From a virus, in the IMG/VR virus record IMGVR_UViG_3300031774_000162, positions 1-23,172 of that record: a stretch of DNA of 23,172 nucleotides, one strand, 5' to 3'. The notes beneath the pieces are model-generated. The model did not search any database, had not been told where the DNA came from, and saw nothing but the letters and a program-made list of their open reading frames with translations. The position numbers and the translations under genes were made by a program. This document shows positions 1,434 through 23,172 of the stretch, piece by piece. Numbering within the stretch: position 1 is the stretch's first letter; each line of letters begins with the position of its first letter.

Positions 1434-1771
1434 TAGGATGGTTTAGGGTATTTATCTTTTGTGGCTTTTATTGCAGAAGCAAATCCTCCACTTGTCGTAA
1501 CTGTTCCAGCTACTATGTCTTTATAGAGTAAATCAAGTTGCTCTCCTATTGGTAAATAAACAGTATCACCTGTTCCTATTCTAGGATTACCTTGTCTATC
1601 TGATTTATATTTAACTGCAGCAGCAGCCGTATTAAGCTCTGTTCGAGCTGTATCTATATTCGATTGTACGAGGGTAACTTTATTACCATCTTTGTCAAAA
1701 GCACCTTGGCTGTCATCAACACGGACAACACTTGAATATGCTTTGTAAATTGCTTCGTGATCTAGTGCCAT
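1433..1771 (-). CDS. Fibre-associated small protein (cyanophage conserved; chaperone candidate)
   Basis: A 112-residue product starting MALDHEAIYKAYSSVVRV. It contains VTLVQSNIDTAR, then LPIGEQLDLLYKDIVAGT and ends KATKDKYPKPS. Start and end match a small protein that commonly follows tail-fibre genes in cyanophages. The C-terminal pattern (IGxQLDxLYxD, then a KxxKDKYPKP tail) recalls short tail-fibre-associated or assembly domains of many phages. It has no signal peptide or membrane segment. The start overlaps the stop of the preceding head-protein gene by one base (TAATG), so the two are translationally coupled. A fibre assembly or chaperone role rests on position and the C-terminal motif and is not proven. 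Confidence 0.78.
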   Translation of the reverse strand: MALDHEAIYKAYSSVVRVDDSQGAFDKDGNKVTLVQSNIDTARTELNTAAAAVKYKSDRQGNPRIGTGDTVYLPIGEQLDLLYKDIVAGTVTTSGGFASAIKATKDKYPKPS

Positions 1772-2310
1772 TATGCGGCTACCTCCATCAATGTAAGAGT
1801 ACTAATACCGTGATAATTATCGTTTCCTTGCCATCTATTCAAATAGATTGTATGAGCGTCAGTATGCCATTGAAGTTTATATGTAGTCGCACTTGTAGTA
1901 CTAGGACTATCTAAATAAGACATATTATGTTGAATCATAAGCAAGCCTCCTATATATACACTTGTTGTAGCTGGTGCGCTACCAGAGGTATTGGCTGGTT
2001 GAGCAATATTAGTACTTCCTCGAACAAGATTTATATGCGATGTATTGCTTTGAGTATGACTTAGAAAAAGATTATAACTAATCAAAATCTTACTACTACT
2101 AGAACTTGGTGTTATTGCTTGAGATATACCTATATCTGTAAAGCTAGTAGCGGATGTTGATGCTGTATCACTTTTAGTTGTTGAAAGAACTTGAAGAATC
2201 TTACCTCCACCACTTAGATTAGATACGGTTGTACTACCATCTGAGTTAAGAACAATATTATTTGAACTAGAGGAGGCATGTTTTATATTTGTTGTAGCTA
2301 ATGTACTCAT
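1771..2310 (-). CDS. Tail-fibre head-like protein, paralogue B
   Basis: A 179-residue Ser/Thr-rich beta protein. The N-terminal linker contains NSDGSTTVSNLSGGGKILQV. The body shares landmarks in the same order with the neighbouring 198-residue protein: GKILQV, TxSDTAS/KTDTAS, ITPSSSSSKILISYN, YLDSPSTTSATTYKLQ, TIYLNR and a final STLTLMEVAA. This pattern is a repeated head or tip domain of cyanophage fibres as I know them, so a role in receptor binding or as a fibre tip is likely. The ATG overlaps the preceding stop as ATGA. The middle differs most from its paralogue, as expected if binding loops diversify. The ligand is unknown. Confidence 0.78.
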   Translation of the reverse strand: MSTLATTNIKHASSSSNNIVLNSDGSTTVSNLSGGGKILQVLSTTKSDTASTSATSFTDIGISQAITPSSSSSKILISYNLFLSHTQSNTSHINLVRGSTNIAQPANTSGSAPATTSVYIGGLLMIQHNMSYLDSPSTTSATTYKLQWHTDAHTIYLNRWQGNDNYHGISTLTLMEVAA

Positions 2311-2903
2311 GCGGCTACCTCCATAAGAGTTATTGTTGATGCACTTCGACCATCAAATTCTGAATTATTTGCATCTATACCATTACGGTTTAAATATACG
2401 GTCTCACTACCTCCCCAGACAGCACCTTGAACTTTATAAGTAACAGAAGAAGTTGTACTTGGTGAATCTAAATAGCTAATATCCACATCAACAGACTTAT
2501 AGTATTCAACATTACCATCATGATAATCAGTAATGTTTTTAGTAACTCTAGGTCTATTTCCAGCAGAATCGCCTAACATTAGTTGCGTAGAATCTCTTAC
2601 TAAGTAAGTGTATAAACCATACATACTTGTACCTCCAAGTATCATATTACAAGTAACTAATATTTTACTTGATGTAGAAGCAGGAGTAATCGAACAAGAA
2701 AGTCCCCAGTCTGCAGGGCTGCTATAAACAGCAGTTAGAGATGCCGTATCTGTCTTTACTGTTTGGACTACTTGAAGAATCTTACCAAAACTTTGTGAAG
2801 TACTAGGTAATGTAAAAGTTACATCAGCTCCACTTGTCGAGTTTGGAGGAGCTAAAGAAACTGAACCTCCACCACTCGTGGGTATTAATTTAATTGCACT
2901 CAT
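2307..2903 (-). CDS. Tail-fibre head-like protein, paralogue A
   Basis: A 198-residue beta-rich protein starting MSAIKLIPTSGGGSVSLAPP, a common short N-terminal fibre module (SxIKLxPxxGGGSVSLxxP). Then come GKILQVVQTVKTDTAS, ITPASTSSKILVTCN, YLDSPSTTSSVTYKVQ, TVYLNR and the terminal TITLMEVAA. It is a tandem paralogue of the next 179-residue protein, identical in the final TLMEVAA and in most landmarks. The insert between the strands (YLVRDSTQLM to DGNVEYYKS) is unique to this copy. Junctions on both sides are four-base ATGA overlaps. It is probably a receptor-binding tip or accessory fibre head; host receptor unknown. Confidence 0.8.
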   Translation of the reverse strand: MSAIKLIPTSGGGSVSLAPPNSTSGADVTFTLPSTSQSFGKILQVVQTVKTDTASLTAVYSSPADWGLSCSITPASTSSKILVTCNMILGGTSMYGLYTYLVRDSTQLMLGDSAGNRPRVTKNITDYHDGNVEYYKSVDVDISYLDSPSTTSSVTYKVQGAVWGGSETVYLNRNGIDANNSEFDGRSASTITLMEVAA

Positions 2904-3475
2904 ATTGATAAAGCTGTGATTCCTATACGTGGTACGGATAGCTGCTGATTCTCACTACCATCCCACCAGTAAGTTTTATGTATGTGTATAGGATAACTAC
3001 TCGAATATTCTCTAAATTGCATTTTTAATGTTTTATTTGAAGACCAGCTGGCTACTCTACCTGTATCTGTATTAGCAGTACCGCCAATCCTAACAGGCCA
3101 CTCAAAGGTAACTAACTGAAGGATATCTTCACCAGTTATTTCTGTACGGCTATGTACAACTTCATCACTATCTACAAAGAATTTAAAATTAGCTATATGG
3201 AGATCAGTAGCACCCTCTCTACTACACTGAAAGTGGAATTTATATACCACTGTCTTTGTATCTGCTGGTGGTGTATATGCGATAGTGCTGCCAGTTACGT
3301 CAGCATAGCTATCAGTTGCAACCTGCTTGTCTGTTACGTTTGGGAGGGTTATATTTCCAGCCGAAGTTGTAACAGTCTCTCCATTACAAGGATAAAAGAA
3401 CTCTTCTAATACAACATTAGTTATTTCGTTACTTAATCCTGTTACCGTTCCATTACCGTTAATTGTTACTGCCAT
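2900..3475 (-). CDS. Stand-alone fibre head domain, duplicate of the gp17-like fibre C-terminus
   Basis: I take the ATG at 3475, giving MAVTINGNGTVTGLS, a recurrent cyanophage fibre N-terminus. It begins two bases after the upstream stop; a longer form from ATG 3493 would overlap that stop. The product has 191 residues. Residues 25-191 align with residues 275-447 of the first fibre protein (7993-9336). Shared landmarks: AYTPPADTKTVVYKF, DSDEV/DTDEV, FEWPxxI, ASWSSNKTLK/SSWTSAKTIK, xYSxxY, YWW/YWD, and PRIGITALS/PTISITAIS. It is therefore a free copy of a receptor-binding-like head domain. It could replace, decorate or compete with the covalent head of the main fibre, which is inference. Confidence 0.82.
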   Translation of the reverse strand: MAVTINGNGTVTGLSNEITNVVLEEFFYPCNGETVTTSAGNITLPNVTDKQVATDSYADVTGSTIAYTPPADTKTVVYKFHFQCSREGATDLHIANFKFFVDSDEVVHSRTEITGEDILQLVTFEWPVRIGGTANTDTGRVASWSSNKTLKMQFREYSSSYPIHIHKTYWWDGSENQQLSVPRIGITALSI

Positions 3476-3477
3476 AA

Positions 3478-5991
3478 TTAAATCACCGTCCAAGTTTCAC
3501 CAGCACCAACCGTTACGGTGACACCAGAGTTGATAGTTACAGGACCAAAAGTACCTGCATTTGTGTTGTTAGTTATTGTGTAATTAGTTGTCACTGTTTG
3601 TCCGTTTTCCCAAAATATAGAATCACCACCAGCTCCTGTAGCACCACCGCCTCCAGCTGCTTCCCATCCAGCTTCACCGTTAGCGTCAACTGTTAGAACG
3701 TAGTCTTCAGTAGCAGTAGTGTCTTTAACCGTAAAGTTAATACCAGGTATCCTGAATTTGGTAATTGCTGTATCACCTAAAGTTATTTCGTTATCTACAC
3801 CTACAGCACTGGCAGTTGCATCATGTCCAAGTATTAGACAGTTGGCTCCTGTGGTAAAACCATCTGCTGCTTTTTGTCCTATTATCGTGCAATTAGTTGC
3901 TGAAGTCATATCCTCACCAGCCGATTGCCCTACCACAGTATTGTCATTACCTACCAGCGTTCCCCAGACACAAGCGTACTCACCAATAATGGTATTACGG
4001 GAAGCATTACCAGCAGTCCAAGCACTTTTTCCAATAACTATGTTACTTGACCCAGTAGTGAGTCCAGCACCTCCATTGCTTGCAATGACAGTGTTACTGG
4101 CTCCTGTAGTGAGATTTCCTGCGGCTGAATGACCGCACAAATTATTATTTGTTCCTGTAGTGACTGAATCACCAGCACCTTTTCCTATCGCAGTATTGTA
4201 ATTTCCAACTGAAAGTTTTAATGCGTTATATCCTATAGCAGTTTGGCTATTTGCTGTTTCGTTAGTCTTTAAAGCTTCATAACCCAGCGCAGTGTTTGAA
4301 GTACCTGTAGTATTAGCTGTTAAAGAGTACAATCCAATGGCTATATTGTTATCTGCTGTAGTATTAGCTTTTAAAGCATCAACTCCAATGGCTATATTGT
4401 TATCTGCTGTAGTATTAGCTTTTAAAGCATCAACTCCAATAGCTATATTTGATGAACCAGTCGTCTGGTTATATATTGAGTCCATCCCAATGGCAATATT
4501 TTTCTCTCCTGTAGTTGTAAAAGCTAGAGTGCTTCGACCTATTCCAATATTTGTATTTCCAGAGGTAAGTCTTACTCCTGTAAGCCAACCGATATTTATA
4601 TTATCACTACCTGTGGAATCAGATACTTTAGGGCCAGCACCGCATCCAAGTCCAATATTACGACTTCCACTTGTAGTTGCGACACCAGCTTCAGCACCTA
4701 TAAATGTATTTGCTTCTCCTGTGACAGCATAACCAGCACGATAACCAAGACCTGTATTTTCTATAGTAGTAGTTACATTTCCAAGGGTATAATCACCTAT
4801 ACCTACATTTCTTCTTGATGTTGTTAATTTGCCAAGAGCATCTTTTCCAACTGCTGTGTTGTCATATCCAGTAGTACAAGCATCTAAAGCTTTATATCCA
4901 AAGGCAGAGTTATCGTCTCCTGAAGTGATCGCAGTACCAGCATCATATCCGAATAAAGTATTATATTCTGCATCAGTTCCAGTAAAGCTATCACCAGCAT
5001 TCGAACCACCTACCGTGTTGTACTGAGCATCAGAGCTAACTCCTCCACCAGCAGCAGCTTCCCAACCAGCTTCTCCATTAGCATCAACTGTTAAGACATA
5101 ATCTTCAGTAGCAGTAGTATCTTTAACAACGAAGTTAATACCAGGTATCCTAAACTTCGTTATATCGCTATTACCTAGAGTTATTTCGTTATCGACCGTT
5201 GGCGAGCTAGGCATTGCTAACTTTCCTATTATTGTATTATTAGCACCTGACGTTAAAGCTGTACTCGTATCATTCGAATTATAACCAGCGTACGAACCTA
5301 TACATATATTGCCACTACCTGTCGAACTGTAACCAGAGTGAGTCCCTATACCAACGTTTTCACTTGCGGCACAATTATATAAAGCTTTATATCCGACAGC
5401 AGTACTGTGATCTTCGTGCGTTATAGCACCTGATAAGGCTTGTTTTCCTACCGCTACGTTTTGACTTCCCGTCGTGAGATTGTCTAGTGCTAAACTTCCA
5501 ACGGCAGCATTTTCATACCCAGTTGTAGTATTTCTCGCCGCATGTGCACCAATGACCGTATTGCTATTACCTGTAGTCTGAGAATTTAAAGTTTGATGAC
5601 CAATAGCTATATTGTTATATGAAGTATTTTCTTTTAAAGCTTCATATCCAATAGCAATATTTTGAGTGCTAGTTGCTAGTGTTTTTAAAGCTTCAGATCC
5701 AATTGCAACGTTCTTATCGCCCGTAGTTAGAGCCGTACCAGCGTTATATCCAAATAAAGTGTTGTTAGTAGCATCTGTACCAGTAAATGAGTCTCCTGCA
5801 TTCGTACCACCAATCGTGTTGTATTGAGCGTCAGAACTAACTCCTCCACCTCCAGACCCAACCTCAACTACTGAGCCGCCTGAAGTTTTTGTAAACAAAC
5901 CTCCATCAGAGGTATTAATGGCAAGTTCACCTACAGTTAAATCGCTTGCTGAAGGGTCAGCAGCTTTTCTTTTATGTAGTATATTTGCCAT
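3478..5991 (-). CDS. Large adhesin-like fibre protein with YadA-type head repeats
   Basis: An 837-residue protein. Residues 1-46 (MANILHKRKAADPSASDLTV, GELAINTSDGG) form a fibre N-terminal module common in cyanophages. Residues about 75-260 and 345-730 are dozens of 14-25-residue repeats of the form N-x-A-I-G-x-x-A-L-x-x-x-T-T-G, the spacing of YadA-like left-handed parallel beta-roll heads. Each block ends NEITLG, ITKFRIPGINF, KDTTATEDYVLTVDANGEAG (residues 268-313 and 734-779), and each begins VSSDAQYNT, GDSFTGTDA. The protein thus carries two unequal copies of one module. The C-terminus (SIFWENGQTVTTNYTITNNT, TVTVGAGETWTVI) is another recurrent cyanophage fibre cap. It abuts the preceding gene with no gap (TAA-ATG). 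Most likely a trimeric fibre or side-fibre for cell-surface adhesion. Confidence 0.85.
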   Translation of the reverse strand: MANILHKRKAADPSASDLTVGELAINTSDGGLFTKTSGGSVVEVGSGGGGVSSDAQYNTIGGTNAGDSFTGTDATNNTLFGYNAGTALTTGDKNVAIGSEALKTLATSTQNIAIGYEALKENTSYNNIAIGHQTLNSQTTGNSNTVIGAHAARNTTTGYENAAVGSLALDNLTTGSQNVAVGKQALSGAITHEDHSTAVGYKALYNCAASENVGIGTHSGYSSTGSGNICIGSYAGYNSNDTSTALTSGANNTIIGKLAMPSSPTVDNEITLGNSDITKFRIPGINFVVKDTTATEDYVLTVDANGEAGWEAAAGGGVSSDAQYNTVGGSNAGDSFTGTDAEYNTLFGYDAGTAITSGDDNSAFGYKALDACTTGYDNTAVGKDALGKLTTSRRNVGIGDYTLGNVTTTIENTGLGYRAGYAVTGEANTFIGAEAGVATTSGSRNIGLGCGAGPKVSDSTGSDNINIGWLTGVRLTSGNTNIGIGRSTLAFTTTGEKNIAIGMDSIYNQTTGSSNIAIGVDALKANTTADNNIAIGVDALKANTTADNNIAIGLYSLTANTTGTSNTALGYEALKTNETANSQTAIGYNALKLSVGNYNTAIGKGAGDSVTTGTNNNLCGHSAAGNLTTGASNTVIASNGGAGLTTGSSNIVIGKSAWTAGNASRNTIIGEYACVWGTLVGNDNTVVGQSAGEDMTSATNCTIIGQKAADGFTTGANCLILGHDATASAVGVDNEITLGDTAITKFRIPGINFTVKDTTATEDYVLTVDANGEAGWEAAGGGGATGAGGDSIFWENGQTVTTNYTITNNTNAGTFGPVTINSGVTVTVGAGETWTVI
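3655..3792 (-). repeat. Segmental repeat, distal copy (NEITLG...VDANGEAGW module)
   Basis: This encodes residues 734-779 of the adhesin-like fibre. It is nearly the same protein sequence as the copy at 5053-5190 and very similar in DNA (for example both have the stretch coding TEDYVLTVDANGEAGWEAA). Together with the matching block starts, it marks a duplication of a whole repeat module inside one gene. Confidence 0.8.
4333..4434 (-). repeat. Perfect tandem repeat, 2 x 51 bp
   Basis: Bases 4333-4383 and 4384-4434 are identical as read. Each copy encodes one 17-residue beta-roll repeat (NNIAIGVDALKANTTAD). The next repeats downstream and upstream are related but diverged. DNA identity between neighbouring coils, amid otherwise drifting repeats, indicates a recent in-frame duplication by slippage or recombination that lengthens the fibre by one coil. 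Confidence 0.92.
5053..5190 (-). repeat. Segmental repeat, proximal copy (NEITLG...VDANGEAGW module)
   Basis: This encodes residues 268-313 of the same fibre protein. The partner copy is at 3655-3792. The two differ mostly by synonymous third-position changes, so the duplication is old enough to have drifted but is still constrained at protein level. Confidence 0.8.
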
Positions 5992-7506
5992 TTACCATGT
6001 ACCACCATCGATAATACCACATCCTAATTCACCAGTTGAGGAATTATAAGTTAATTGAGAATCACTCTTAGGTGCTAAATTTCCAGTTGCTGCAGTAGCA
6101 AATAATGGGAAACATGTTGTATCACTTGATTCATCAGCAACTGTTACTGTAGTTGCTATTGCAGCTGTACCTGATGTATCTTGGTTAAGTGTACCTACAA
6201 CGAAATCTATTGTATTATCACTATCTTGATAAGTAACTGTAATACCTGTTTCAGTATTACTACCGACCATAGCACCAACAGTATCAGATATATATTCAGC
6301 TAAAGTAGTACCATTAACTGTATATGCATCTGCTTCTAATGTTCCATCAATATCAGCATTACCTGAGATATCAAGACTTGCTGCATCTAATTCCCCTCCA
6401 ATAGTTAATAGACCAGAACTAGGATTATAGGTTAATCCTGTATCAGTCTCGATACCTTGAGCACCTGTTGCTCCATCTACAAAAGTTAAATAGGTAGTCT
6501 CATCTGTTGAGTTATTTGCTGTAGCAGTTACATTACTTGCATTTGTAGCAGTACCTGCATCTTCCCAAATAAGACCATTACTATCTGAATATTTTAGAAC
6601 ATAACCATCAGTAGGACTGTTATGTATATCTAACTTATCTTCTACAATTGAGTCATCGCCTATACGTGCAGCAGGTAAGGTACCTGATGATAAAGCGGAA
6701 GCATTAGTTGAATCTGCAACTTCAGCCCAAGTTAAGCCACCAGTATTACCTGATTGAGCTTGTAAGAAATAACCATTAGTAGGTGAGTTAGATACCTTTA
6801 GATTAGCTTCATCTACTACATCATTTGCAATAGTAGTAGCGATATCGCAATCTGCACTTCCATTAAAACTTGTATCACTAGCAGTAATTTCTCCAGTTAA
6901 AGAGAAGTTTCTTGCTGAAGCTAAGTTTGTAGCAGTAGCAGAGTTACCTGTACATGATCCAGAAGATCCACTTGTATTACCTGTTACATTACCAGTTACG
7001 TTACCTTCTAAGTTACCTACAAGTGTACCTGTTGTAACTGTTAAGTTACCAGTTGAATCAGCAGTAGCTGTAGTTGTACCTAATAAAAACTTATCTGTTG
7101 ATTCATCCCATCCAATAAAAGCATTATCACCAGTTGAACCTCTTTCAATTAGTAATCCGCAATCGTTAGCGTTAGAACCAGCACCACTATTTAATTCAAG
7201 TAGATTATCTGCAACAGTTGTATTTGTAGTTGCTACGGTAGTTGTTGTACCATTAACAGTTAAGTTACCAGTAACTACAACGTTATTACTAAATGTTTTA
7301 TTACCAGCTACTGTTTGTGCATTTGTTAAATCAACAAACGCTCCTGATCCACCAATCTTAATTACACTAGCTGCATTACTACCACTAGTTCCTTCACCAT
7401 AATAAAGTATATCGTTACCTTCAGTAAACGCTAATTCTGCGTTTGCTAAATCTGAACTACTAGGTGCTGTTGACCCAGTAGATCTTTTTATTCTAATTTG
7501 AGCCAT
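5992..7506 (-). CDS. Modular tail-fibre / virion structural protein
   Basis: A 504-residue protein. The N-terminus (MAQIRIKRSTGSTAPSSSDL, ANAELAFTEGNDILYYGEG) is a fibre attachment-type module found in cyanophage structural proteins. Residues 68-90 carry the NKTFSNNVVVTGNLTVNGTT motif, then NLLELNSG. Residues 160-225 hold Gly/Asn/Thr repeats (GNLEGNVTGNVTGNTSG) and a phage-fibre repeat (ATNLASARNFSLTGEITASD, FNGSADCDIATTIAND). Two copies of a short module follow: NSPTNGYFLQAQSGNTGG at 240-257 and NSPTDGYVLKYSDSNG at 296-311; the first recurs in the gp17-like fibre. Residues 406-440 (EYISDTVGAMVGSNTETGIT, YQDSDNTIDFVVGTL) are another recurrent fibre block, and the end is IIDGGTW. A trimeric fibre shaft or base is likely. 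It starts three bases after the preceding stop. Confidence 0.82.
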   Translation of the reverse strand: MAQIRIKRSTGSTAPSSSDLANAELAFTEGNDILYYGEGTSGSNAASVIKIGGSGAFVDLTNAQTVAGNKTFSNNVVVTGNLTVNGTTTTVATTNTTVADNLLELNSGAGSNANDCGLLIERGSTGDNAFIGWDESTDKFLLGTTTATADSTGNLTVTTGTLVGNLEGNVTGNVTGNTSGSSGSCTGNSATATNLASARNFSLTGEITASDTSFNGSADCDIATTIANDVVDEANLKVSNSPTNGYFLQAQSGNTGGLTWAEVADSTNASALSSGTLPAARIGDDSIVEDKLDIHNSPTDGYVLKYSDSNGLIWEDAGTATNASNVTATANNSTDETTYLTFVDGATGAQGIETDTGLTYNPSSGLLTIGGELDAASLDISGNADIDGTLEADAYTVNGTTLAEYISDTVGAMVGSNTETGITVTYQDSDNTIDFVVGTLNQDTSGTAAIATTVTVADESSDTTCFPLFATAATGNLAPKSDSQLTYNSSTGELGCGIIDGGTW

Positions 7507-7509
7507 GTT

Positions 7510-7974
7510 TTAAAAGGAGCCTCCGTCCACGATTTTTGATAATGTTTGAGTCGTATCAGCCTTAAACTTCGAAGCGCTAGAGCTATAATAAATAACAGAA
7601 CCATCAGCCTTAGCTGATTGATCTAAGACAAAATCAGATGAGCTGCTTATAAGTGGATTACTTGTATCAGCAACTTCTTGAGAAAAGTATAGACTTTGGT
7701 CAAAGTTATTATTTAGATCTGTAGCTCTATAGGATGAACCAGATGCGAAAACAGCTTTAGCTGTATCGACATCAGTGTTTCTATAAATCAGTACCTTAAC
7801 TCCAGCACTAGGAGCCGAGTTTAATTGGATGGAGGTGGCTGTTGCAAATGTAAATGCAGTTGTATTTGTACCGTCTAGCGATACCTTCACGTCTTCAGTT
7901 TTTAGATAAGGGAAGTCAAATGAATAAGTTACTGTACTTCCGCTTTGTGTGTATTCTTTTGTTGTTACAGCCAT
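7510..7974 (-). CDS. Short protein with T7 gp17-type N-terminal (virion-anchoring) domain
   Basis: A 154-residue protein. Residues 1-103 match the T7 tail-fibre N-terminal domain and its paralogue just upstream: TKEYTQSGSTVTYSFDFPYL, then VKVSLDG, LNSAPSAGVKVLIYRNTDVD, a FASGSSYRATDLNNNFDQSL segment and a helical end. No shaft or head follows; the rest is a 50-residue linker ending KIVDGGSF, echoed by the GGTW end of the next fibre gene. In T7 this domain docks the fibre trimer on the tail. A free anchoring domain could act as an adaptor on which the next proteins assemble. That role is inference; the fold family is well supported by the two-way match. Confidence 0.82.
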   Translation of the reverse strand: MAVTTKEYTQSGSTVTYSFDFPYLKTEDVKVSLDGTNTTAFTFATATSIQLNSAPSAGVKVLIYRNTDVDTAKAVFASGSSYRATDLNNNFDQSLYFSQEVADTSNPLISSSSDFVLDQSAKADGSVIYYSSSASKFKADTTQTLSKIVDGGSF

Positions 7975-7992
7975 ATCTCATTGTTGTGTATT

Positions 7993-9336
7993 TTAACTAA
8001 TAGCTGTTATAGATATAGTTGGATGATGCATAGTTGCTGCGGGGTTACTATCCCAGTACGCCAGATCATGAAATCTTGATAAGTAACCATCTGAATAAGC
8101 TTTAACTAAAATTTTAATAGTTTTTGCTGACGTCCAAGAACTCATTTGTCCTATACTTAGGTTATTCGATGATCGTATTATAAAAGGCCACTCAAAATGT
8201 TGAGACATTTGAGTGCTAGATGAGTTTATGTAAGGTGAATATCTTGCTGCAGTTACTTCATCAGTGTCTAGCATTAAAGATGTATGATAAAGAATATGAC
8301 CATTGGAGTTGTTAGGTCTTACGAAATAATTAAATTTATAAACCACCGTTTTTGTATCTGCTGGTGGTGTATAAGCCATTTGACTTCCATTAAGAGTAAC
8401 CCAACCTCCTGTAGTATTAACGTCTTGGGCTGCTTGAACATTTTGTGTTTGATACGTACCACTACTAACAACAGCAGATGTACCAGTACAACATAATGTA
8501 AATGTTTCTAATACAGAACCAGCAGGTTTTATAGAAATAGGAGTAGCCCAAGTTAAACCGCCTGTATTACCAGATTGTGCTGTTAAGACATAACCGTTAG
8601 TTGGGTTGTTAGATATTTGTAATTTAGCTTCATTAACAGCTTGATTATCTATCTTAGCTTGAGTTGCAGCAAGATCAGCTATCATATCTGTTGCTACTTG
8701 TACTTCTTGTACTTGACCTGCTGAAGCTCTACCTAGTACTCTATTAGCAGTTACTATATTTTGTAGCTTAGGATATGTAACTGCATCATCTTGAATAGCA
8801 TTAGTATCAACTGCATTGTCAGCTAACTCACTAGCACCTACTGCATTAGCTGCAATTTCATCAGCCGTAACAGCATTAGTTTCTATTTCATCAGTACCAA
8901 CACTGTTATCAGCCATCATTGACTTCTCAACAACACCAGTCCTAATAACCCAGTCAGTATCACTATTAACAGTAATATCATTCTTATTACCTGTAGTGAT
9001 ACCTCCAGATGTAGTCGTAACTAATTTAGCTTCTTCTATTGCATAGAGTGCTTGTTTTTGATTTTCATTTAAACTTGCTGCCGTGATAGATGAACCTGCT
9101 GCATACTCATGTTCAGCTGTGTCTATATTTGTATTACGATATAGTTTTACGTTATCTGTACCTGATGCAGGAGCTGTTCCAAAAGTAACTGTGTTTCCAG
9201 AAATTGTATAATCCGTGTCAACAGTTTTAGTTACTCCACCTACTGATACACCTATATCTGCATGTGTTAAATATGGGAATGTTATATCGAATGTTTTATC
9301 TGATCCATCCCCATTATACGTCTTTTCTGTTGCCAT
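7993..9336 (-). CDS. T7 gp17-like tail fibre protein
   Basis: A 447-residue protein directly after the gp16-like gene, the place of gene 17 in T7. Residues 1-105 form the T7 tail-fibre N-terminal domain (TEKTYNGDGSDKTFDITFPY, FGTAPASGTDNVKLYRNTNI, AAGSSITAASLNENQKQALY). Residues 142-190 are short helical repeats (NSVGTDEIETNAVTADEIAA, NAVGASELADNAVDT). Residues 243-265 carry the NPTNGYVLTAQSGNTGGLTW module. Residues 275-447 form a beta-rich head (AYTPPADTKTVVYKF, HFEWPFII, ISITAIS) that also exists as a separate gene at 2900-3475. Expected role: trimeric fibre fixed to the adaptor/nozzle junction, with the distal head recognising the host surface. Confidence 0.88.
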   Translation of the reverse strand: MATEKTYNGDGSDKTFDITFPYLTHADIGVSVGGVTKTVDTDYTISGNTVTFGTAPASGTDNVKLYRNTNIDTAEHEYAAGSSITAASLNENQKQALYAIEEAKLVTTTSGGITTGNKNDITVNSDTDWVIRTGVVEKSMMADNSVGTDEIETNAVTADEIAANAVGASELADNAVDTNAIQDDAVTYPKLQNIVTANRVLGRASAGQVQEVQVATDMIADLAATQAKIDNQAVNEAKLQISNNPTNGYVLTAQSGNTGGLTWATPISIKPAGSVLETFTLCCTGTSAVVSSGTYQTQNVQAAQDVNTTGGWVTLNGSQMAYTPPADTKTVVYKFNYFVRPNNSNGHILYHTSLMLDTDEVTAARYSPYINSSSTQMSQHFEWPFIIRSSNNLSIGQMSSWTSAKTIKILVKAYSDGYLSRFHDLAYWDSNPAATMHHPTISITAIS

Positions 9337-9338
9337 GG

Positions 9339-12300
9339 TTATTTATTTTGTAGTATGTATTCAGGGTAAGCATCTTCGGTAGGTAATTGTACATCGATTG
9401 CTTGATCGATTGCTCCTTTTTCAGTAAAACTTTTAGAAGCACGTTTAATAAACTCTCTATTTCGTATTTCGGATAACATTTCTTCAGATAATGAAGCTTC
9501 TGCTAATTTTTTAGAAGATTCAAAAGCTTTTCTTATTCTACTATATACTTTTTTATAATCTTCAATAGCGAATAATTCATTCCCTATGCCACCTTTACGT
9601 TGTTCTCTAAGTATATTGGTAAAACCTTTAGTACCGTTATACTCAATATTTTCAGCATACCTTTTAATTTTCTGTAATTCACGTTTAAATACACCTTGCT
9701 CACCCATTTTACTGAAGATAGCACTACGTTCAGTGTTAGTTAATTCAACACCACCAGTACTGCTATTCATTTGTGGATTAGCATTATATTCAATCTTTTG
9801 TAGAAAAGTATGTAATTCTGAAGGATTATCGTGACGCTTCATAGGACTATATGCATTCCATGCTCTAACAAAGAAATTTTCTGGATAACGTATTTTATTA
9901 CCATCAATAAAATCGTAAGATTCAGGAAGTGCCCCTTGTGGATCAAAGGCGTCCAACCAATTATTTCTATTACGTATAGAATCACCTAGTTCTGCTTTTA
10001 TTTCACGTAAGGTTGGATTCATAACACGTCCTAATTCATTACGTTGACCAGATAAAGGTAAAATAGCATTACCAAAAGATGATGCCCATCTATTAAATGC
10101 ACTACCATTACCTTGTAGAATATCATTTAATGGTTCTACATTAGATAAAAGACTTTTGTTTGTAAAACTTGAAGCAAATACAAAAGATAACTTTTTCCAA
10201 AACTCTTCTTGTTTTGAGGTACTTAGAGAATCAGCATTATCTGCTACGGTTACAACTGTTGATAACCATTCACCTAATGGACCTAACCAAGCATAATCAT
10301 ACCATCCACCATCTAAACCTTGAAAAGTGTTTTTTACCCAACCAGTTTTAGTGCGAACTCTTTGTCTAGATTTATCCCAATGACCAGCTCCTCTTAATCT
10401 ACCAGATCTATAAGCACCTAAAGCTGCCATAGTAACTACTGTACCTAAAGCTACTTTACCTTTTACTTCAGCTCTTATTTGACGAAATTCTGTCATATAG
10501 TTTGCGTCAAAGTTTTTACCACGTCTTTCTAAGATTTCTTTAATCTCTTCAATGGGAAACGATTCAATCTTTCTAGCACCTAAAGGGCCGAATAATTGTT
10601 GATATTCTTTTGAAAAAGTACCGAATGGACTATATCTACCTACAGTAGCCAGTACATTAGCCGATGTTCTAGGGAACATAAAGTGAGGTTTGATTATAGG
10701 GAATCGATCTAAGATAGCATTAAAACCTTTAACTAAAGGACTATCTAAGTTTAAAGCTATTTCACTGTTAAGATATTCCACAGCTTTATCTGTAATCATT
10801 CCGTTTTCATCTTGCATTTCTTTGAAGATTTGATCTTTAACTTCGAAAAATGCATCTTTATCAATTTCCCTACCTTCTTGTATAAGTTTATCAAAGGCTC
10901 TGGCTTTTGCTTCTACGTGACCTGTTACTGATCTAGAAAACCCATCTAAACCTGTCATAGCATTAGTACCAAATCTAAGCACAGGGTTTTCAGCCATTGT
11001 TTCTAGATTTTCATATACATGTAATAGAGCACTAGCTCCAAACTCATCTTGTTCTTCAGCTGCTTTTGCATAAGACCAAAGCATATCTAAGTTATTAGCT
11101 TTTTTTAATGCTATATCTTCACGCATTGCATAACTAATAGCTCTAGGTTCTAAAGAAGCTTTTTTGAAAACTAAACCAGCATGGCTTAAACTTTTAGTTA
11201 ATGTATCATCTAATGAGAAATGAGACCACATAGCTCTATGCATTATATGCCAATCACCTTCTAATGCAGCCCCAGCCATAGTTGCTATAGGTCTAGCACT
11301 TAAACCACCTAAGTTTCCAACTAAAGCTTTAATAGGAGTAGAGAAGGCAGAAAGAACAGAGTTAAATATATTACCTAAAAATGCTTTATTAATCATAGGT
11401 GGTATATCAGGATTACCATCATACAAAGCTTTTTTAAATACACCTAAACTATTACTAACATAGTGATTTAATTTATATAATGAATTTACATCACCATCAG
11501 TTAGTTCATTAGCTAACATAAAACTTTTTAAGAAATCAGGATTAACTTCTGCTATTTCTCTAATTGTATTAGTATATTCTTTTACATTAGGAATTAGTTC
11601 ATTAATTTTACTTTTGATTTCATCTTCGATAGCTTTAGCTGCTTGACCCATAATTTGAGGGTCTTTAGTATCAGCTGCTACTTCCCAAGCATTAAGATTA
11701 GATCTGTAGGTACCAGCTTCGAAATTAGCCACACCTTTTTCTATCATCAAATACTCTATACGATCTGCTATTTCATTCGCAGCTCTACGCATAACAGTAG
11801 TATCATCCATTAAACGAATACCTTCTGATATATCAGAGATTTGACCTCCTAAAGAAGTAACTAAATAAGCTCTAGCTTTTTGTACATCAAGATCAATAAT
11901 ATTTTCTTTTAAACTTTTAATAGCTAATTTAACACCTTCAGAACCTTTCCTATTAATGACTTTTAATTCAGTATCACCTACTGCACGTTTAAATTCATCT
12001 AATAGTTTCATCATATCTCCAGGTTCCATTCTTGGATCAAGAAGTATTTCTGATAATCTTTCACCAGACTTTTTAATTTGTGCTGAAGTAATCTTTTTAC
12101 CATTAGCTAATTGTTTTGAATATACACCACCTTCTTTTAAGTTTTCAGCTAGTTCTTTGATAAGAGTTCTTTCACTCATATTAGCTGGATCTAACCCAAC
12201 TTTTAAAGCAGCTTCACTGATAGGATTACCTAAACGTCCGTATGTTGTGTCTATAGTGTTATCGATCCTAGCTTGGTCTACAGCAGCCCCTAAGATGCCA

Positions 12301-13361
12301 TCTGGATCTTTTGTACGTGTTAAGCTTTCCTTGTCACTAAAGACGTCGTGAACGCCTAATACGGGCTGATTAGGATCTTTAATTGGTATAGTACCGTTTA
12401 CTTTAGCTTCTCCTAATTCATCTAAAGCTTTTTCTTTTCTTGCATAGTTACGTAAAACTGTATCTTCTATTGGATTATCAGAGAACTTAATCTTTGAAAA
12501 TTCATCAGTTGTTAGTTCTTCTATACGTTTTTGAGCTTTAGGGTTTTGTGCTATGAATTTAGTTGTTTTATCTAAACTCTTACCAGCTTTAAGTAAATAA
12601 GCTGAACCTTCAACTACACTACTAAGTACATTAAAAACAGCACCTTCATTAACATTCTTCGAACGTTTAGTATCAGAACTATCAGAATCTAAAGTAGCTA
12701 TTGTATCAGGAATAAATTGGTAAGTTTTAGGCCAATGCTTTTTCAACATACCTGTAGCATTATGATCTTCTTGATTTTGTTTTGCTATATAATCAACAAA
12801 ACCACCTGTACCTACATCAATACCGAATTTAGAAAACCATTCAAAGGTTTTACTATTACCTAAACGTTGCATCCAAGGTGCAGCTAATTTAGCTTTATGT
12901 AGTTTTGTACCAGTTTGAATAGCTTTTGCTCTTAAACCTAAAGAAGGTATAATTAAGCCTGACATATCCCTAACTGATTCTAATACCTTACTTTCATATT
13001 TAGGTAGTTTTGGTATTTCAGGTATATTGAAAGGGTCTCTAGCTGGACCTGTAATCCAATTAGCTAAATCTGTAACAGTATCTACTACACCTGCACCCAT
13101 AGCTGCAGGATAGTTAGATGCATTTTGTAAAGCTTTAAGTGGGTTACTTACATCTGCATCACCTCCAACTTCATTGAAACTTTCAGCAAATGTATTGTTA
13201 CCTGTTTCCGTAGAAGCAGGTTCTTGTTGTGTGTTGGAAGCAGGTGTTTGTTCTGCAGCTTCTCCTATACCAGGTGTAATCGGTTCAGCTAGACTTTCTA
13301 AGTCTTCTGGTGTAAACTCTGGTATTTGGATTTCAAGCTCCTCTTGAGGTTCGTTTTCCAT
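9339..13361 (-). CDS. T7 gp16-like internal virion (DNA ejection) protein
   Basis: A 1340-residue protein, close to the 1318 residues of T7 gp16, in the gp16 position between the gp15-like protein and the fibre. The N-terminal 70 residues are acidic and Pro/Glu-rich (MENEPQEELEIQIPEFTPED). The rest is mostly helical, with hydrophobic patches near residues 660-700 (FNSVLSAFSTPIKALVGN) and 966-985 (VALGTVVTMAALGAY) that could engage membrane during ejection. I see no clear soluble lytic transglycosylase motif at the N-terminus, unlike T7 gp16. It belongs to the ejectosome expelled to carry DNA across the periplasm and inner membrane. The call rests mainly on gene order, size and composition. 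Confidence 0.78.
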   Translation of the reverse strand: MENEPQEELEIQIPEFTPEDLESLAEPITPGIGEAAEQTPASNTQQEPASTETGNNTFAESFNEVGGDADVSNPLKALQNASNYPAAMGAGVVDTVTDLANWITGPARDPFNIPEIPKLPKYESKVLESVRDMSGLIIPSLGLRAKAIQTGTKLHKAKLAAPWMQRLGNSKTFEWFSKFGIDVGTGGFVDYIAKQNQEDHNATGMLKKHWPKTYQFIPDTIATLDSDSSDTKRSKNVNEGAVFNVLSSVVEGSAYLLKAGKSLDKTTKFIAQNPKAQKRIEELTTDEFSKIKFSDNPIEDTVLRNYARKEKALDELGEAKVNGTIPIKDPNQPVLGVHDVFSDKESLTRTKDPDGILGAAVDQARIDNTIDTTYGRLGNPISEAALKVGLDPANMSERTLIKELAENLKEGGVYSKQLANGKKITSAQIKKSGERLSEILLDPRMEPGDMMKLLDEFKRAVGDTELKVINRKGSEGVKLAIKSLKENIIDLDVQKARAYLVTSLGGQISDISEGIRLMDDTTVMRRAANEIADRIEYLMIEKGVANFEAGTYRSNLNAWEVAADTKDPQIMGQAAKAIEDEIKSKINELIPNVKEYTNTIREIAEVNPDFLKSFMLANELTDGDVNSLYKLNHYVSNSLGVFKKALYDGNPDIPPMINKAFLGNIFNSVLSAFSTPIKALVGNLGGLSARPIATMAGAALEGDWHIMHRAMWSHFSLDDTLTKSLSHAGLVFKKASLEPRAISYAMREDIALKKANNLDMLWSYAKAAEEQDEFGASALLHVYENLETMAENPVLRFGTNAMTGLDGFSRSVTGHVEAKARAFDKLIQEGREIDKDAFFEVKDQIFKEMQDENGMITDKAVEYLNSEIALNLDSPLVKGFNAILDRFPIIKPHFMFPRTSANVLATVGRYSPFGTFSKEYQQLFGPLGARKIESFPIEEIKEILERRGKNFDANYMTEFRQIRAEVKGKVALGTVVTMAALGAYRSGRLRGAGHWDKSRQRVRTKTGWVKNTFQGLDGGWYDYAWLGPLGEWLSTVVTVADNADSLSTSKQEEFWKKLSFVFASSFTNKSLLSNVEPLNDILQGNGSAFNRWASSFGNAILPLSGQRNELGRVMNPTLREIKAELGDSIRNRNNWLDAFDPQGALPESYDFIDGNKIRYPENFFVRAWNAYSPMKRHDNPSELHTFLQKIEYNANPQMNSSTGGVELTNTERSAIFSKMGEQGVFKRELQKIKRYAENIEYNGTKGFTNILREQRKGGIGNELFAIEDYKKVYSRIRKAFESSKKLAEASLSEEMLSEIRNREFIKRASKSFTEKGAIDQAIDVQLPTEDAYPEYILQNK

Positions 13362-13375
13362 TTTATAATTTTAAA

Positions 13376-15469
13376 TTAAGGATTAAAAGGATTAAACCCA
13401 GGTCTCATTGGTATATTAGGTATTCCAAACATTGACAAGTTTAAATCTTCATCGTATATACCTTCAGGAGATAATTCATAAGCTATACTAGTATATGTAT
13501 TTTCTGAAGGGTCTCTCATAATCGACACTTTTGCTTTAGGTGACAACTCTTTTTTCCAAGTTTTAGCAGCATCAGTTTCTTCTATTTTTTTACCGCCTTG
13601 TCCACTATAAATAATCCAAGGTGGTACGTTTAATTCATCGCTAAGAAATTGTATATCAGGACTCCATGTACCCGATTCTTCAAATTCTACTTCTATCGAT
13701 GCAAGTGAATCTTTGTTTAATAAAACTTCATCATTATTAACTATTGCTTGTCTACTAAGACCTTGATCTGTTAAAGATTTTATAGTATTTCTAGCGTTGC
13801 GTTTTCTAATATCATTATTAGAAAAATCAGCTCCTATACTTTTTAAATAATTTTCAAATCTTCCAGTTTTAGAATTATAAGAATATAAACCAGGTCCATC
13901 TATAGTATCACCTCCTTTAATTTTAAAATCTGTTGTTACTATTGTAGCTGCTGTTGTTGCAGAATTAGGATCATTAGGATCTAATTTAATATATTCTTTA
14001 TTAAAGTCTCTTTTTAATTTATCGACAATACCTTGGGCTTCTGGAGTTAAACCCTTGTTATTAGTATAAGCAATACCTGCTTGAGATACAAATACATTCT
14101 CAAAAGTATTTAATGTATTTTTATATGAATCGGTTTTTCTACCATTTTCTTGTTTCTCAGCTTTAGATGTCCACTCCTGCATTAAATAAGAAACGCCTGT
14201 TTTATTAACCATTTCTACAGTTAATTCATTATTGGCATAAGCTGTTTCTAATTCTCTTTCTGCAGCTTTAATTGTTAAAGTACCTGTATCTAAATTATCT
14301 CTTATACGTTCTAAATTTTCTGGGTTGTGACCATTTTTAATTAAATCATGGATAGCAGTATCTAAAATTATTTTTTGATCTTCTGGAGTAGTACCAGGGT
14401 TATCTACAAGCCATGTAGAAATACGAGTTTCTTTTTCCTCATTTATTTGTTTATTACGTTCTTTGTTTTCTTTATGTCTTTTAATAGATCGTTTAGAAAG
14501 TGCGTCTTCAATACCTTCAGCTTTTTCTTTTCCAAGATAATCTCTAAAAGTTTTGAATCCATCTAAACCAGTTTCACTCTCAAGAAGTATTTTTATTTCG
14601 TCTTCAGTAAATGTATCATTATCTATACCTATTAAAAGTTTATTATAGTCTTCATTTTTATAAATCTTTCTTTCGCCACCATATAGTAAATGTTTTTTAT
14701 TAACATTTTGTATAAATGTTTTAGCAGCTAGACCTGTTCCAGCATTTATTGTATTATCTAGTTCTTTATTATATAAAGTAGTCCTCTCAGCTTTTTCTAA
14801 TTTAGTCCTTGTAACAGCTGCTGTTGTTGTTGAATTTTTAAATAATGTACTAAATTGATCGTAAATTTTTAATTCTTTTCTAGTAGCAGCATCTAATCTA
14901 CCAATGCTAGTGTTAGTTATGTAATCTAATTCAAATTGTTTGTCAAAGTTCTGCCTAGCTAGAGTATCTAATTGATTATAATTTGCCCTATCTTTAGCTT
15001 GTATATACGCTGACGCCGCATTTATCATATCTTCGCCAGCAAAATATTTATTTAACCAAGAAATATCTCTTGGATTTTCAATACCATTTAAAATATCACG
15101 TTTTTCAGCTGATAAATTATATTTCATTTTATCAACTTCATCACCTAAATCTTCTAGTTTTTTCTTATCTTCTAAATTTTTTAAATAATCTTGTGAAGTA
15201 ATACCTGCTTCTTTTAGCTCAACTTGATAGTCTGCCTGACGTTTTTCATCAGCTTTTAACTGCTGTTCTTTAAACATCCCTGCAGCTGTTGGGGATAAAT
15301 TAACTAATGTCTGTATTCCTTTACTTAATTCTTGAGCATTTTGTACTCGGTATTGAGCATTAGTTTGTTTTTGTTGTAGTAATCGTGCTAGATTATCGTT
15401 GTTTCTAGCCACTGAATTTCTTGCACCTGTAGCGTAATCAGGTACAGGTAGTCTTTTATATTCTGCCAT
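13376..15469 (-). CDS. T7 gp15-like internal virion protein
   Basis: A 697-residue protein (T7 gp15 has 747), strongly helical and highly charged, with long Lys/Glu/Asp-rich stretches. It starts MAEYKRLPVPDYATGARNSV and ends PMRPGFNPFNP. No signal peptide, catalytic motif or membrane span is apparent, as expected for the gp15 core protein, which with gp14 and gp16 forms the internal core and then the ejection channel. It lies two bases after the gp14-like stop and 14 bases before the gp16-like gene, the exact T7 arrangement. Confidence is from synteny, length and composition. Confidence 0.78.
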   Translation of the reverse strand: MAEYKRLPVPDYATGARNSVARNNDNLARLLQQKQTNAQYRVQNAQELSKGIQTLVNLSPTAAGMFKEQQLKADEKRQADYQVELKEAGITSQDYLKNLEDKKKLEDLGDEVDKMKYNLSAEKRDILNGIENPRDISWLNKYFAGEDMINAASAYIQAKDRANYNQLDTLARQNFDKQFELDYITNTSIGRLDAATRKELKIYDQFSTLFKNSTTTAAVTRTKLEKAERTTLYNKELDNTINAGTGLAAKTFIQNVNKKHLLYGGERKIYKNEDYNKLLIGIDNDTFTEDEIKILLESETGLDGFKTFRDYLGKEKAEGIEDALSKRSIKRHKENKERNKQINEEKETRISTWLVDNPGTTPEDQKIILDTAIHDLIKNGHNPENLERIRDNLDTGTLTIKAAERELETAYANNELTVEMVNKTGVSYLMQEWTSKAEKQENGRKTDSYKNTLNTFENVFVSQAGIAYTNNKGLTPEAQGIVDKLKRDFNKEYIKLDPNDPNSATTAATIVTTDFKIKGGDTIDGPGLYSYNSKTGRFENYLKSIGADFSNNDIRKRNARNTIKSLTDQGLSRQAIVNNDEVLLNKDSLASIEVEFEESGTWSPDIQFLSDELNVPPWIIYSGQGGKKIEETDAAKTWKKELSPKAKVSIMRDPSENTYTSIAYELSPEGIYDEDLNLSMFGIPNIPMRPGFNPFNP

Positions 15470-15471
15470 AG

Positions 15472-16110
15472 TTAGTTGCCTTTTATAATTTTACCAGCGG
15501 ATGCCCCAGACACAGCACCTGAGATACCAGCCGTTAAGCCAGCTAAGAGTGGGCTTCTATAAACAGGTTTTGGCGGCTCAAACCCAGGTACTTTCTCCCA
15601 CATAACATTTGCAAATAATTGTGATCTATCAGCTTTAGCTTGGTTTCTTAATGATTCAGCTGTTTCTTTAAAAGCATATTCATTTTGAGTTAAAGCATAA
15701 GCGTTTCGTGAACCTTTTCTTAAGTATTCAGCGAAGTCTAAAGTTTCTATTCTGTCAATAGATCGACCTGTTCTACCAGATGCTGCTAATGAAGCACTTT
15801 CACTGTCTTGTAAAAAGTCTTTATAATCTTTTTCATCTGATTGTAAAGCTTGAGCAATTAAATTATTACGTTCAGCATCAAGTTGTTCAAAACCTTCACC
15901 TAAAGCTAAAGCACTTTGGTCTAGACCTTGTTCATATTGAACTCTTTCAACTCCTGCAATTGACAACTGACCCATCCAATCAGCTTCACGTTGTTGAAGG
16001 GCTGATTGATATGACTGAGCTCTGGCTCTATTTTCGGCATTAGCGGCATTAGCAGCTCCTATAAAACTAGCTCCTCCTGCGACTGCTGCTCCTACTACTG
16101 GATTGCACAC
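15472..16110 (-). CDS. T7 gp14-like internal virion protein
   Basis: A 212-residue product (T7 gp14 has 196). The start is GTG at 16110, giving MCNPVVGAAVAGGASFIGAA, like the MC-plus-Ala-rich hydrophobic start of T7 gp14. The body is Ala/Gln/Glu-rich helix, with GRTGRSIDRIETLDFAEYLR a recurring feature of cyanopodovirus homologues as I recall. The C-terminus is a Gly/Ala hydrophobic stretch (LLAGLTAGISGAVSGASAG). gp14 is the outer-membrane pore component of the T7 ejectosome, and both hydrophobic ends fit that. The 5' end overlaps the gp13-like gene by 44 bases. Confidence 0.83.
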   Translation of the reverse strand: MCNPVVGAAVAGGASFIGAANAANAENRARAQSYQSALQQREADWMGQLSIAGVERVQYEQGLDQSALALGEGFEQLDAERNNLIAQALQSDEKDYKDFLQDSESASLAASGRTGRSIDRIETLDFAEYLRKGSRNAYALTQNEYAFKETAESLRNQAKADRSQLFANVMWEKVPGFEPPKPVYRSPLLAGLTAGISGAVSGASAGKIIKGN

Positions 16111-22259: not shown

Positions 22260-22616
22260 TTAGAAACTGTACTTTGCTCCTAACTTTGTACCGTAGGTGT
22301 TGTCAGCGTCTTCCACTTGTGCGAAAGATACTTCACCATAGAAGCCAAGTTTATCTGTAGCAGAGATATTGCCACCAAGCTTGCCAGAGAAATTAGACTC
22401 TGAATCAACCCCATCAGCAGCATTAATTGTCTTACCGCCTTGGACATAATATGCCAAATCGCCAAGATTGTTTTCATAACCTATGTGTAGATCTGTAGCG
22501 CTTGATGTGTAATCTGAACCAGTGTAGTTAGCATTTGATTCTACATTAACATATGGTCCAGCCATTGCAGGTGTAGAAACAAGAGTGGTTGCTAGGACAA
22601 GTGCAAGTTTTTTCAT
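22260..22616 (-). CDS. Secreted small beta-barrel-like outer-membrane protein
   Basis: A 118-residue product. Residues 1-19 (MKKLALVLATTLVSTPAMA) are a classic signal peptide with AMA cleavage. The mature protein of about 99 residues starts GPYVNVESNANYTG and consists of alternating polar/apolar strands with tight Asp/Gly turns (TDLHIGYENNLGDLAYYVQG, SGKLGGNISATDKLGFYGEV, SFAQVED, TYGTKLGAKYSF). It ends in Phe, the usual last residue of outer-membrane barrels recognised by BamA. About six to eight strands fit, like OmpX- or OprB-tail-like mini-barrels. Similar proteins occur in cyanomyoviruses as hypotheticals, to my recollection. The gene lies between psbA and the capsid and has its own strong terminator. 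Outer-membrane placement is well motivated; the role (permeability, receptor masking, lysis) is open. Confidence 0.85.
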   Translation of the reverse strand: MKKLALVLATTLVSTPAMAGPYVNVESNANYTGSDYTSSATDLHIGYENNLGDLAYYVQGGKTINAADGVDSESNFSGKLGGNISATDKLGFYGEVSFAQVEDADNTYGTKLGAKYSF

Positions 22617-22753: not shown

Positions 22754-22822
22754 CTATTTTTTCTTGGTAGTTTTTTTAGGTCTACCTACCTTTGTACCAT
22801 AGGTACCTTTACCCGAGGGCAT
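22754..22822 (-). CDS. 22-residue basic peptide overlapping the psbA stop
   Basis: It starts at an ATG 14 bases inside the end of psbA, in another frame, and reads [20 protein letters not shown] followed by KK. The GKGTYGxKxGRPxK pattern recurs in small marine phage proteins as I know them. VGRPKK resembles an AT-hook core (GRP flanked by basic residues), suggesting binding to the minor groove of AT-rich DNA, or to RNA; this is inference. A GAGAAAG lies upstream of the ATG. Two- to three-fold more basic than any neighbour, it is probably a real translated gene coupled to psbA. Confidence 0.65.
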
Positions 22823-23172
22823 ATTCTTTCTCAGTTGTTGAAGCTAGATCGAGTGGGAAATTGTGTGCATTGCGTTCGTGCATTACCTCCATACCTAAGT
22901 CGGCACGGTTCAGGACATCAGCCCAGGTAGGTACTGTTCTTCCACTGGCATCGACAACGGATTGATTGAAGTTAAAGCCGTTGAGATTAAAAGCCATAGT
23001 GGAGACTCCCATAGCGGTAAGCCATATGCAAGTGACGGGCCAAGCAGCAAGGAAAAAATGTAAGCTACGACTATTATTAAAAGAGGCATACTGAAAGATA
23101 AGTCTCCCAAAGTAGCCATGAGCCGCAACAATATTATACGTTTCTTCTTCTTGGCCGACTGTGTATCCATAA
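22809..23172 (-). CDS. psbA: Photosystem II D1 protein, C-terminal part (partial at right edge)
   Basis: 120 codons plus stop are present, about D1 residue 235 to the end; the 5' part is outside the window. Seen: [20 protein letters not shown], the QB-pocket segment (H252, Y254, F255, S264), [11 protein letters not shown] with the non-haem iron ligand H272, and [16 protein letters not shown] with the oxygen-evolving-cluster ligands H332, E333, H337, D342 and A344. All key residues are intact, so the encoded D1 looks functional. After A344 comes a ten-residue extension ([10 protein letters not shown]), which CtpA would remove. Phage D1 replaces the rapidly damaged host subunit during infection and sustains energy supply. 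Its position upstream of the capsid gene is typical of psbA-bearing cyanopodoviruses. Confidence 0.97.

Follow-up and report, generated by a model that had tools for sequence, protein, structure and literature searches.

A proposed two-fibre locus with covalent and separately encoded heads in a T7-like virus that is very probably a cyanophage

Why should a phage carry two versions of what looks like one receptor-binding head, the first at the end of a gp17-like tail fibre and the second in a small gene of its own? The question is raised by the IMG/VR virus contig IMGVR_UViG_3300031774_000162, the 23,172 bases of which constitute the window analysed here. In the answer that we favour, with a probability of roughly 0.6, gp17 would carry its head covalently, a second fibre composed of the proteins H, G and F would be headless, and the small gene, called C in the following, would belong with two further genes, B and A, to a set of separate anchor-head proteins that serve this second fibre and are swapped at the boundary between anchor and head.

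By its sequence the window virus is a T7-like podovirus. It is very probably a cyanophage, because its gp12 is closest to those of P-SSP3, P-SSP2 and P-SSP7 (56-57% identity), the DNA of small genes at its left end is about 77-84% identical to that of Prochlorococcus podoviruses, and it carries genes matching PF00124 and PF24653 (Table 1). The fibre and head genes discussed here all lie on the minus strand, in the order gp17, H, G, F and then C, B, A after gp16; as in P-SSP7, gp17 directly follows a 1340-aa gp16-like ORF, an internal core gene. C starts 2 nt past the F stop, and B overlaps the stop of C by 4 nt, as A does that of B, so that F-C-B-A look translationally coupled. In the region 9339-16110, gp14 and gp16 of the window and of its syntenic relative L030 (relatives are designated here by L and a number) share only 26-30% identity, against 96% for H and 76% for the gp17 shaft; it looks as if the internal core module had been exchanged.

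Table 1. Positions of the fibre, anchor and head features in the window and of two genes beyond the capsid gene
Feature	Position	Strand	Basis
gp17 residues 1-274, T7 tail-fibre N-terminal dock and shaft	8515..9336	-	PF03906, E 1.9e-16
Fibre 1 head (gp17 residues 275-447), YTPP	7993..8514	-	36% identical to C
gp17 head block matching the C block	8333..8379	-	42/47 nt vs C block
H, second PF03906 dock protein, putative start of fibre 2	7510..7974	-	PF03906, E 2.8e-17
G, putative middle fibre segment	5992..7506	-	Syntenic in L030, L058, L062, L065
F, putative distal fibre segment, YadA-head-like repeats	3478..5991	-	PHROG tail spike / virion structural families, E 1e-68 or better
F headless C-terminal tip, 48 residues	3481..3624	-	Exact C-terminus in 80/80 IMG/VR loci
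C anchor, residues 1-21, MAVTINGNGTVTG...	3413..3475	-	DNA conserved with L030, L062, L137, L138 up to 3437-3441
C head, YTPP, predicted TNF/C1q-like fold	2900..3412	-	pLDDT 93.2; Z 10.6 to PLTL; clusters with L062 B/A heads, 100/99
C block nearly identical in DNA to the gp17 block	3237..3283	-	42/47 nt; within codon-usage expectation
B anchor, about residues 1-39	2787..2903	-	74% identical over 39 aa to L062_B (YTPP head instead of QVL)
B head, QVL, predicted TNF/C1q-like fold	2307..2786	-	Z 14.3 to Pgp3, 13.7 to PLTL
A anchor, about residues 1-35	2206..2310	-	Same anchor on QVL heads in L030, P-SSP7
A head, QVL	1771..2205	-	53% to L137 B-slot head, 54% to L030 A-slot protein; mixed-slot clade 99/98
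Outer-membrane-like beta-barrel protein, cyanophage type	22263-22616, beyond capsid gene	-	PF24653, E 1.4e-45
Photosynthetic reaction centre gene, end only	22812-23171, beyond capsid gene	-	PF00124, E 1.7e-10

A sequence-only reading of the window had described a 191-residue free head and a 447-residue gp17-like fibre ending in a homologous head. Both genes are present as described, the first with its ATG at 3475 and its stop at 2900-2902 on the minus strand, the second at 7993-9336 with a PF03906 N-terminus that scores 60.6 bits (gathering cut-off 25.2). The landmark peptides quoted in that reading occur in both heads in the same order, and the homology of C to gp17 residues 275-447 was borne out, with 36% identity (63/174) and an E value of about 1e-28; in BLASTP within a set of 7 proteins, residues 22-190 of C aligned with this region at E 3e-28. 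The nearly identical DNA that had been noticed is confined to one block of 42 matching positions in 47 (89%), the remaining head DNA aligning only as short pieces. In a simulation of the 15-residue identical peptide encoded by the block, based on the window's own codon usage, 7.6 identical codons were expected and 10 of the 15 are found (P = 0.15), and outside the block the identical residues of the two heads share the codon in 23 cases, with 24.2 expected. Within the head family, designated YTPP, conservation is highest in the segment that holds the block. Because the codon match is as expected from usage and the segment is a conserved one, the block is uninformative on recent copying, of which, between C and gp17, it is no evidence. 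The proposed adjacency of a free head and a complete fibre did not hold: H, G and F, together about 4.5 kb, lie between gp17 and C. C is a separate gene, as had been claimed, but it is not a bare head, having a slot-specific anchor of its own and being one of three genes behind a different, headless fibre.

Alignment-guided searches of IMG/VR yielded 48 loci, and a hidden Markov model found the YTPP domain in 53 distinct proteins, always at the C-terminus: in 35 cases as a small free gene whose short N-terminus does not exceed about 65 residues, in 15 fused to longer fibre-like proteins, with 3 more of the latter cut. The family has no Pfam match above the cut-off and no sequence match in the PDB, its comparison with PHROG gave nothing convincing (one weak match among 42 members), and tblastn with three YTPP queries against a phage isolate collection returned nothing significant; C itself matches neither Pfam nor PHROG. 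Three tandem YTPP genes with short, similar anchors, for example MANLTDYFPA, were seen in other aquatic phages (L046, L049, L050, L054). The heads of B and A, the latter 43% identical to B, belong to a second family, QVL, and a profile comparison (probability 87, E 4e-6) suggests that YTPP and QVL are remotely related. A third family, LLAG, was built from L059, L062 and L138. The heads of C and B are predicted to be TNF/C1q-like jelly rolls. The single-chain AlphaFold2 model of C (mean pLDDT 93.2) resembles, besides the TNF-like lectin PLTL, BC2L-C and Pgp3 (Z 10.2 for both), and that of B has a pLDDT of 81.7 overall and of about 55 across the anchor. The heads are probably trimeric, and they probably bind surface glycans.

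C, B and A each consist of a slot-specific N-terminal anchor and a C-terminal head, and each of the four slots, that of gp17 included, holds three head types across the relatives. gp17 fibres with the same shaft, which is 76% identical to that of L030 and L057 and 66-73% to those of L058-L061, end in YTPP (L030, L058), in LLAG (L059, L062) or in a collar-type head (L060, L061, L063-L065). The C slot is filled by YTPP, QVL or another head (L138, which has LLAG at B), the B slot by QVL, YTPP or LLAG, and the A slot by QVL, YTPP or an LLAG-like head; an A-related anchor carries YTPP in L155 and an LLAG-like head in L149. The array reads QVL-LLAG-QVL in L152 and QVL-LLAG-YTPP in L155. In L062 the heads are LLAG on gp17, QVL at C and YTPP at B and A, the latter two being 52% and 59% identical to C of the window and 74-77% identical to its head in DNA. 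L030 retains the anchor of the C slot with a QVL head in place of YTPP, and its DNA is 92% identical to that of the window from the end of F into codon 12 of C. The end of F and the first 35-39 nt of C are kept in the DNA of L030, L062, L137 and L138, and in each of them the similarity ends at 3437-3441. At the gp17 slot, L030 DNA matches both flanks (from 8500 upward and from 8010 downward) and not the stretch between. Such breaks of similarity are a direct mosaic pattern in the compared DNA. An 89-nt stretch of 80% DNA identity is common to G (6724-6812) and gp17 (8545-8633) and encodes a PTNGY..QAQSGNTGGLTW-like sequence, a further hint that fibre genes share modules.

The fibre gene that precedes C differs from gp17 in ending without a head. 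H is a second protein with a PF03906 dock (63.3 bits, same gathering cut-off of 25.2) and is 96-98% identical in L030 and L062; in the relatives compared, H or an H-type dock protein comes next after gp17-type fibres with covalent heads, and in some relatives the H-type dock and the fibre form one chain. H-G-F can be read as one fibre in pieces, matching the single 715-aa gp17 of P-SSP7. The two PF03906 proteins per genome could represent two fibre types that share the six tail docks. H (7510-7530) and G (5992-6010), otherwise unlike, both end in DGG[ST][FW], a motif that recurs in relatives and may mark a joint between fibre segments. Within F, a 145-nt stretch occurs twice (3654-3798 and 5052-5196, 83% identity), as part of two halves that resemble each other and contain YadA-head-like repeats. 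With the last 48 residues of F as the query, at least 524 contigs were found, the best 80 of which, the closest ones and not mutually independent, were analysed. The tip was the exact C-terminus in all 80, and a small gene started at most 50 nt behind it in all 76 of them that had enough sequence; 67 of these 76, counted from the listing, carry a recognised QVL-type head on that gene. A head gene comes next after 64 of 72 tip ORFs and after 38 of 295 other ORFs, the latter figure including spurious ORFs. Tip-bearing fibres mostly have one recognised head gene, three-gene arrays being a minority. The end of F (GPVTINSGVTVTVGAGETWTVI) resembles the start of C (MAVTINGNGTVTGL), a purely visual impression that would suit a beta-strand joint.

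How the heads reached their slots was examined in trees, the details of which are uncertain owing to long branches. The head of C groups with the B and A heads of L062 (100/99), the gp17 head of the window with the fused heads of L008, L021 and L041 (100/96), and the gp17 heads of L030 and L058 with each other (100/98); the gp17 head of L030 is 44% identical to C of the window, the window's own gp17 head 36%. A recent duplication of, or gene conversion between, C and gp17 was considered and is rejected by the separate clades in the tree together with the codon test. Free and fused YTPP heads fall largely into different clades. Labels for free and fused YTPP change 5 times on the tree, compared with a mean of 15 after shuffling, and at least 2 of the changes are forced by well-supported branches; traffic between the two forms is, on this tree, therefore real but rare. 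QVL heads are not sorted by slot (8 changes, shuffled mean 8.8), and the A heads of the window and of L030 fall into one clade with the B head of L137 (99/98). The earlier suggestion that heads are swapped is upheld by the comparison with related phages, in which gene order and anchors stay the same while the heads at the gp17, C, B and A slots differ; trees and slots support head exchange between phages. The mixed-tip fibres suggested in the same reading may exist. C as a second copy of the gp17 head, or as a reservoir for it, finds no such backing; the two heads lie in separate, well-supported clades, no transfer between C and gp17 was seen among the relatives compared, and the comparisons support neither direct transfer nor a silent reservoir.

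These observations can be assembled into a model in which a T7-like cyanophage would have two tail fibres encoded at this locus. Fibre 1, gp17, would hold its C-terminal head covalently; fibre 2, H-G-F, would end headless, its receptor-binding heads being made separately as C, B and A. The anchors would most likely dock the heads on the tip of fibre 2, C directly, and B and A either there or on each other. The anchors would act as fixed sockets in which recombination between phages at the anchor/head boundary installs new heads; because such recombination would replace only the heads, one head family could occupy any of the four slots. The anchors are short, and that of B is modelled with low confidence. 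In P-SSP2, P-SSP3, P-GSP1 and S-TIP37, isolates with related gp12, the fibre is not followed by a similar series of three genes of about 190 aa each, so that the group can do without the array.

The strongest competitor of this model, which we nevertheless regard as unlikely, regards C, B and A as independent receptor-binding proteins located elsewhere on the virion, for example on the tail tube or the capsid, or released from the cell. It would accommodate the shortness of the anchors and their several unrelated kinds, as well as the tandem single-head free genes of L046, L049 and L054, where no such tip was noted. Against it stand the linkage of tip and following small gene in all 76 loci and the excess of head genes behind tip ORFs over those behind other ORFs. 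A role of C, B and A as chaperones in the assembly of the upstream fibre is considerably less probable. Their location directly behind a fibre gene is that of known tail fibre assembly genes (PMC10579305, PMC9608196), but C has no chaperone match in Pfam or PHROG, nor have its relatives, the same domain forms the covalent C-terminus, in head position, of other fibres (gp17, L008, L030), and the predicted fold is that of a TNF-like lectin. Least probable of all is C as a silent spare copy for the rewriting of gp17 by gene conversion within the genome, since homology and a shared 15-residue block are opposed by separate clades, a block codon match within chance, a complete ORF with its own anchor starting directly behind F, C sequences that are identical in three contigs (unchanged in two near-identical contigs, with the gp17 head unchanged in one), and surroundings of the heads in which no inverted-repeat cassette stands out. 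An invertible or recombinase-driven fibre locus was also considered; on this 23-kb fragment the heads lack a strong flanking pair of inverted repeats, and a recombinase was not noticed.

The two-fibre reading has partial precedents. Separate, variable C1q-like genes accompanying PF03906 fibres have been described in metaviromic islands of marine phages as likely receptor-binding proteins (2014, PMC3909814), highly variable between co-occurring lineages. That such genes lie beside marine fibres is already known. The variability described there is within genes, whereas the window displays a split into tip, anchor and head, three fixed slots, and one head family traced across slots, including the covalent one of gp17. 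What is new here is the separation of tip, anchor and head, the comparison of slots between relatives, and a head family that has no named entry in the libraries consulted. Phages are likewise known to encode detachable tip adhesins and fibre chaperones together with the fibre gene (PMC9608196, PMC10579305). The gp38 adhesin of the T-even-like phages S16 and PP01 is a small, separate, tip-borne specificity protein, a role known for gp38 and proposed for C, B and A, and its gene, like C, lies directly behind the fibre gene. The two differ in that they have no sequence match, gp38 has a polyglycine domain in place of a TNF/C1q-like head, and the window has up to three tandem genes, the products of which would dock on the fibre; adhesin families were matched neither by C in Pfam nor among the weak matches of 42 relatives. 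PLTL, the N-terminal domain of BC2L-C and the C-terminal domain of Pgp3 resemble both head families in predicted fold (Z 10-14), at 8-18% identity. The PF03906 dock of T7 gp17 is found on gp17 and H of the window, which unlike T7 has two dock proteins in one genome and heads of other families.

The closest known counterpart is P-SSP7 (AY939843). Its 715-aa gp17 has a T7-type N-terminus and ends in an F-type tip, which is followed by 037, 038 and 039; these are annotated as uncharacterized or tail fibre and carry C-, B- and A-type anchors in the same order. P-SSP7 differs from the window in having one PF03906 protein instead of two, and QVL heads with no YTPP. The distal parts of cyanopodovirus fibres are unresolved in published structures (PMC10575957, PMC5345008), and a virion proteome of P-SSP7 was not found in the accessible literature.

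It is conceivable, although we hold this wider proposal to be somewhat doubtful, that the headless fibre shows several detachable lectin-like tips at once, each picked by its anchor, beside a covalent head of the same family on the second fibre, which would give up to four receptor specificities per particle, renewed by swaps at the slots. The YTPP heads constitute a family absent from Pfam, PHROGs and the isolate collection. In a cultured phage, the slot-and-head pattern singles out three candidate tip proteins, 037-039 of P-SSP7, which are predicted to sit on the tip of its gp17. For marine phages it offers a simple rule by which receptor-binding proteins may be found in hundreds of contigs: anchor-head genes are to be looked for behind a headless tip.
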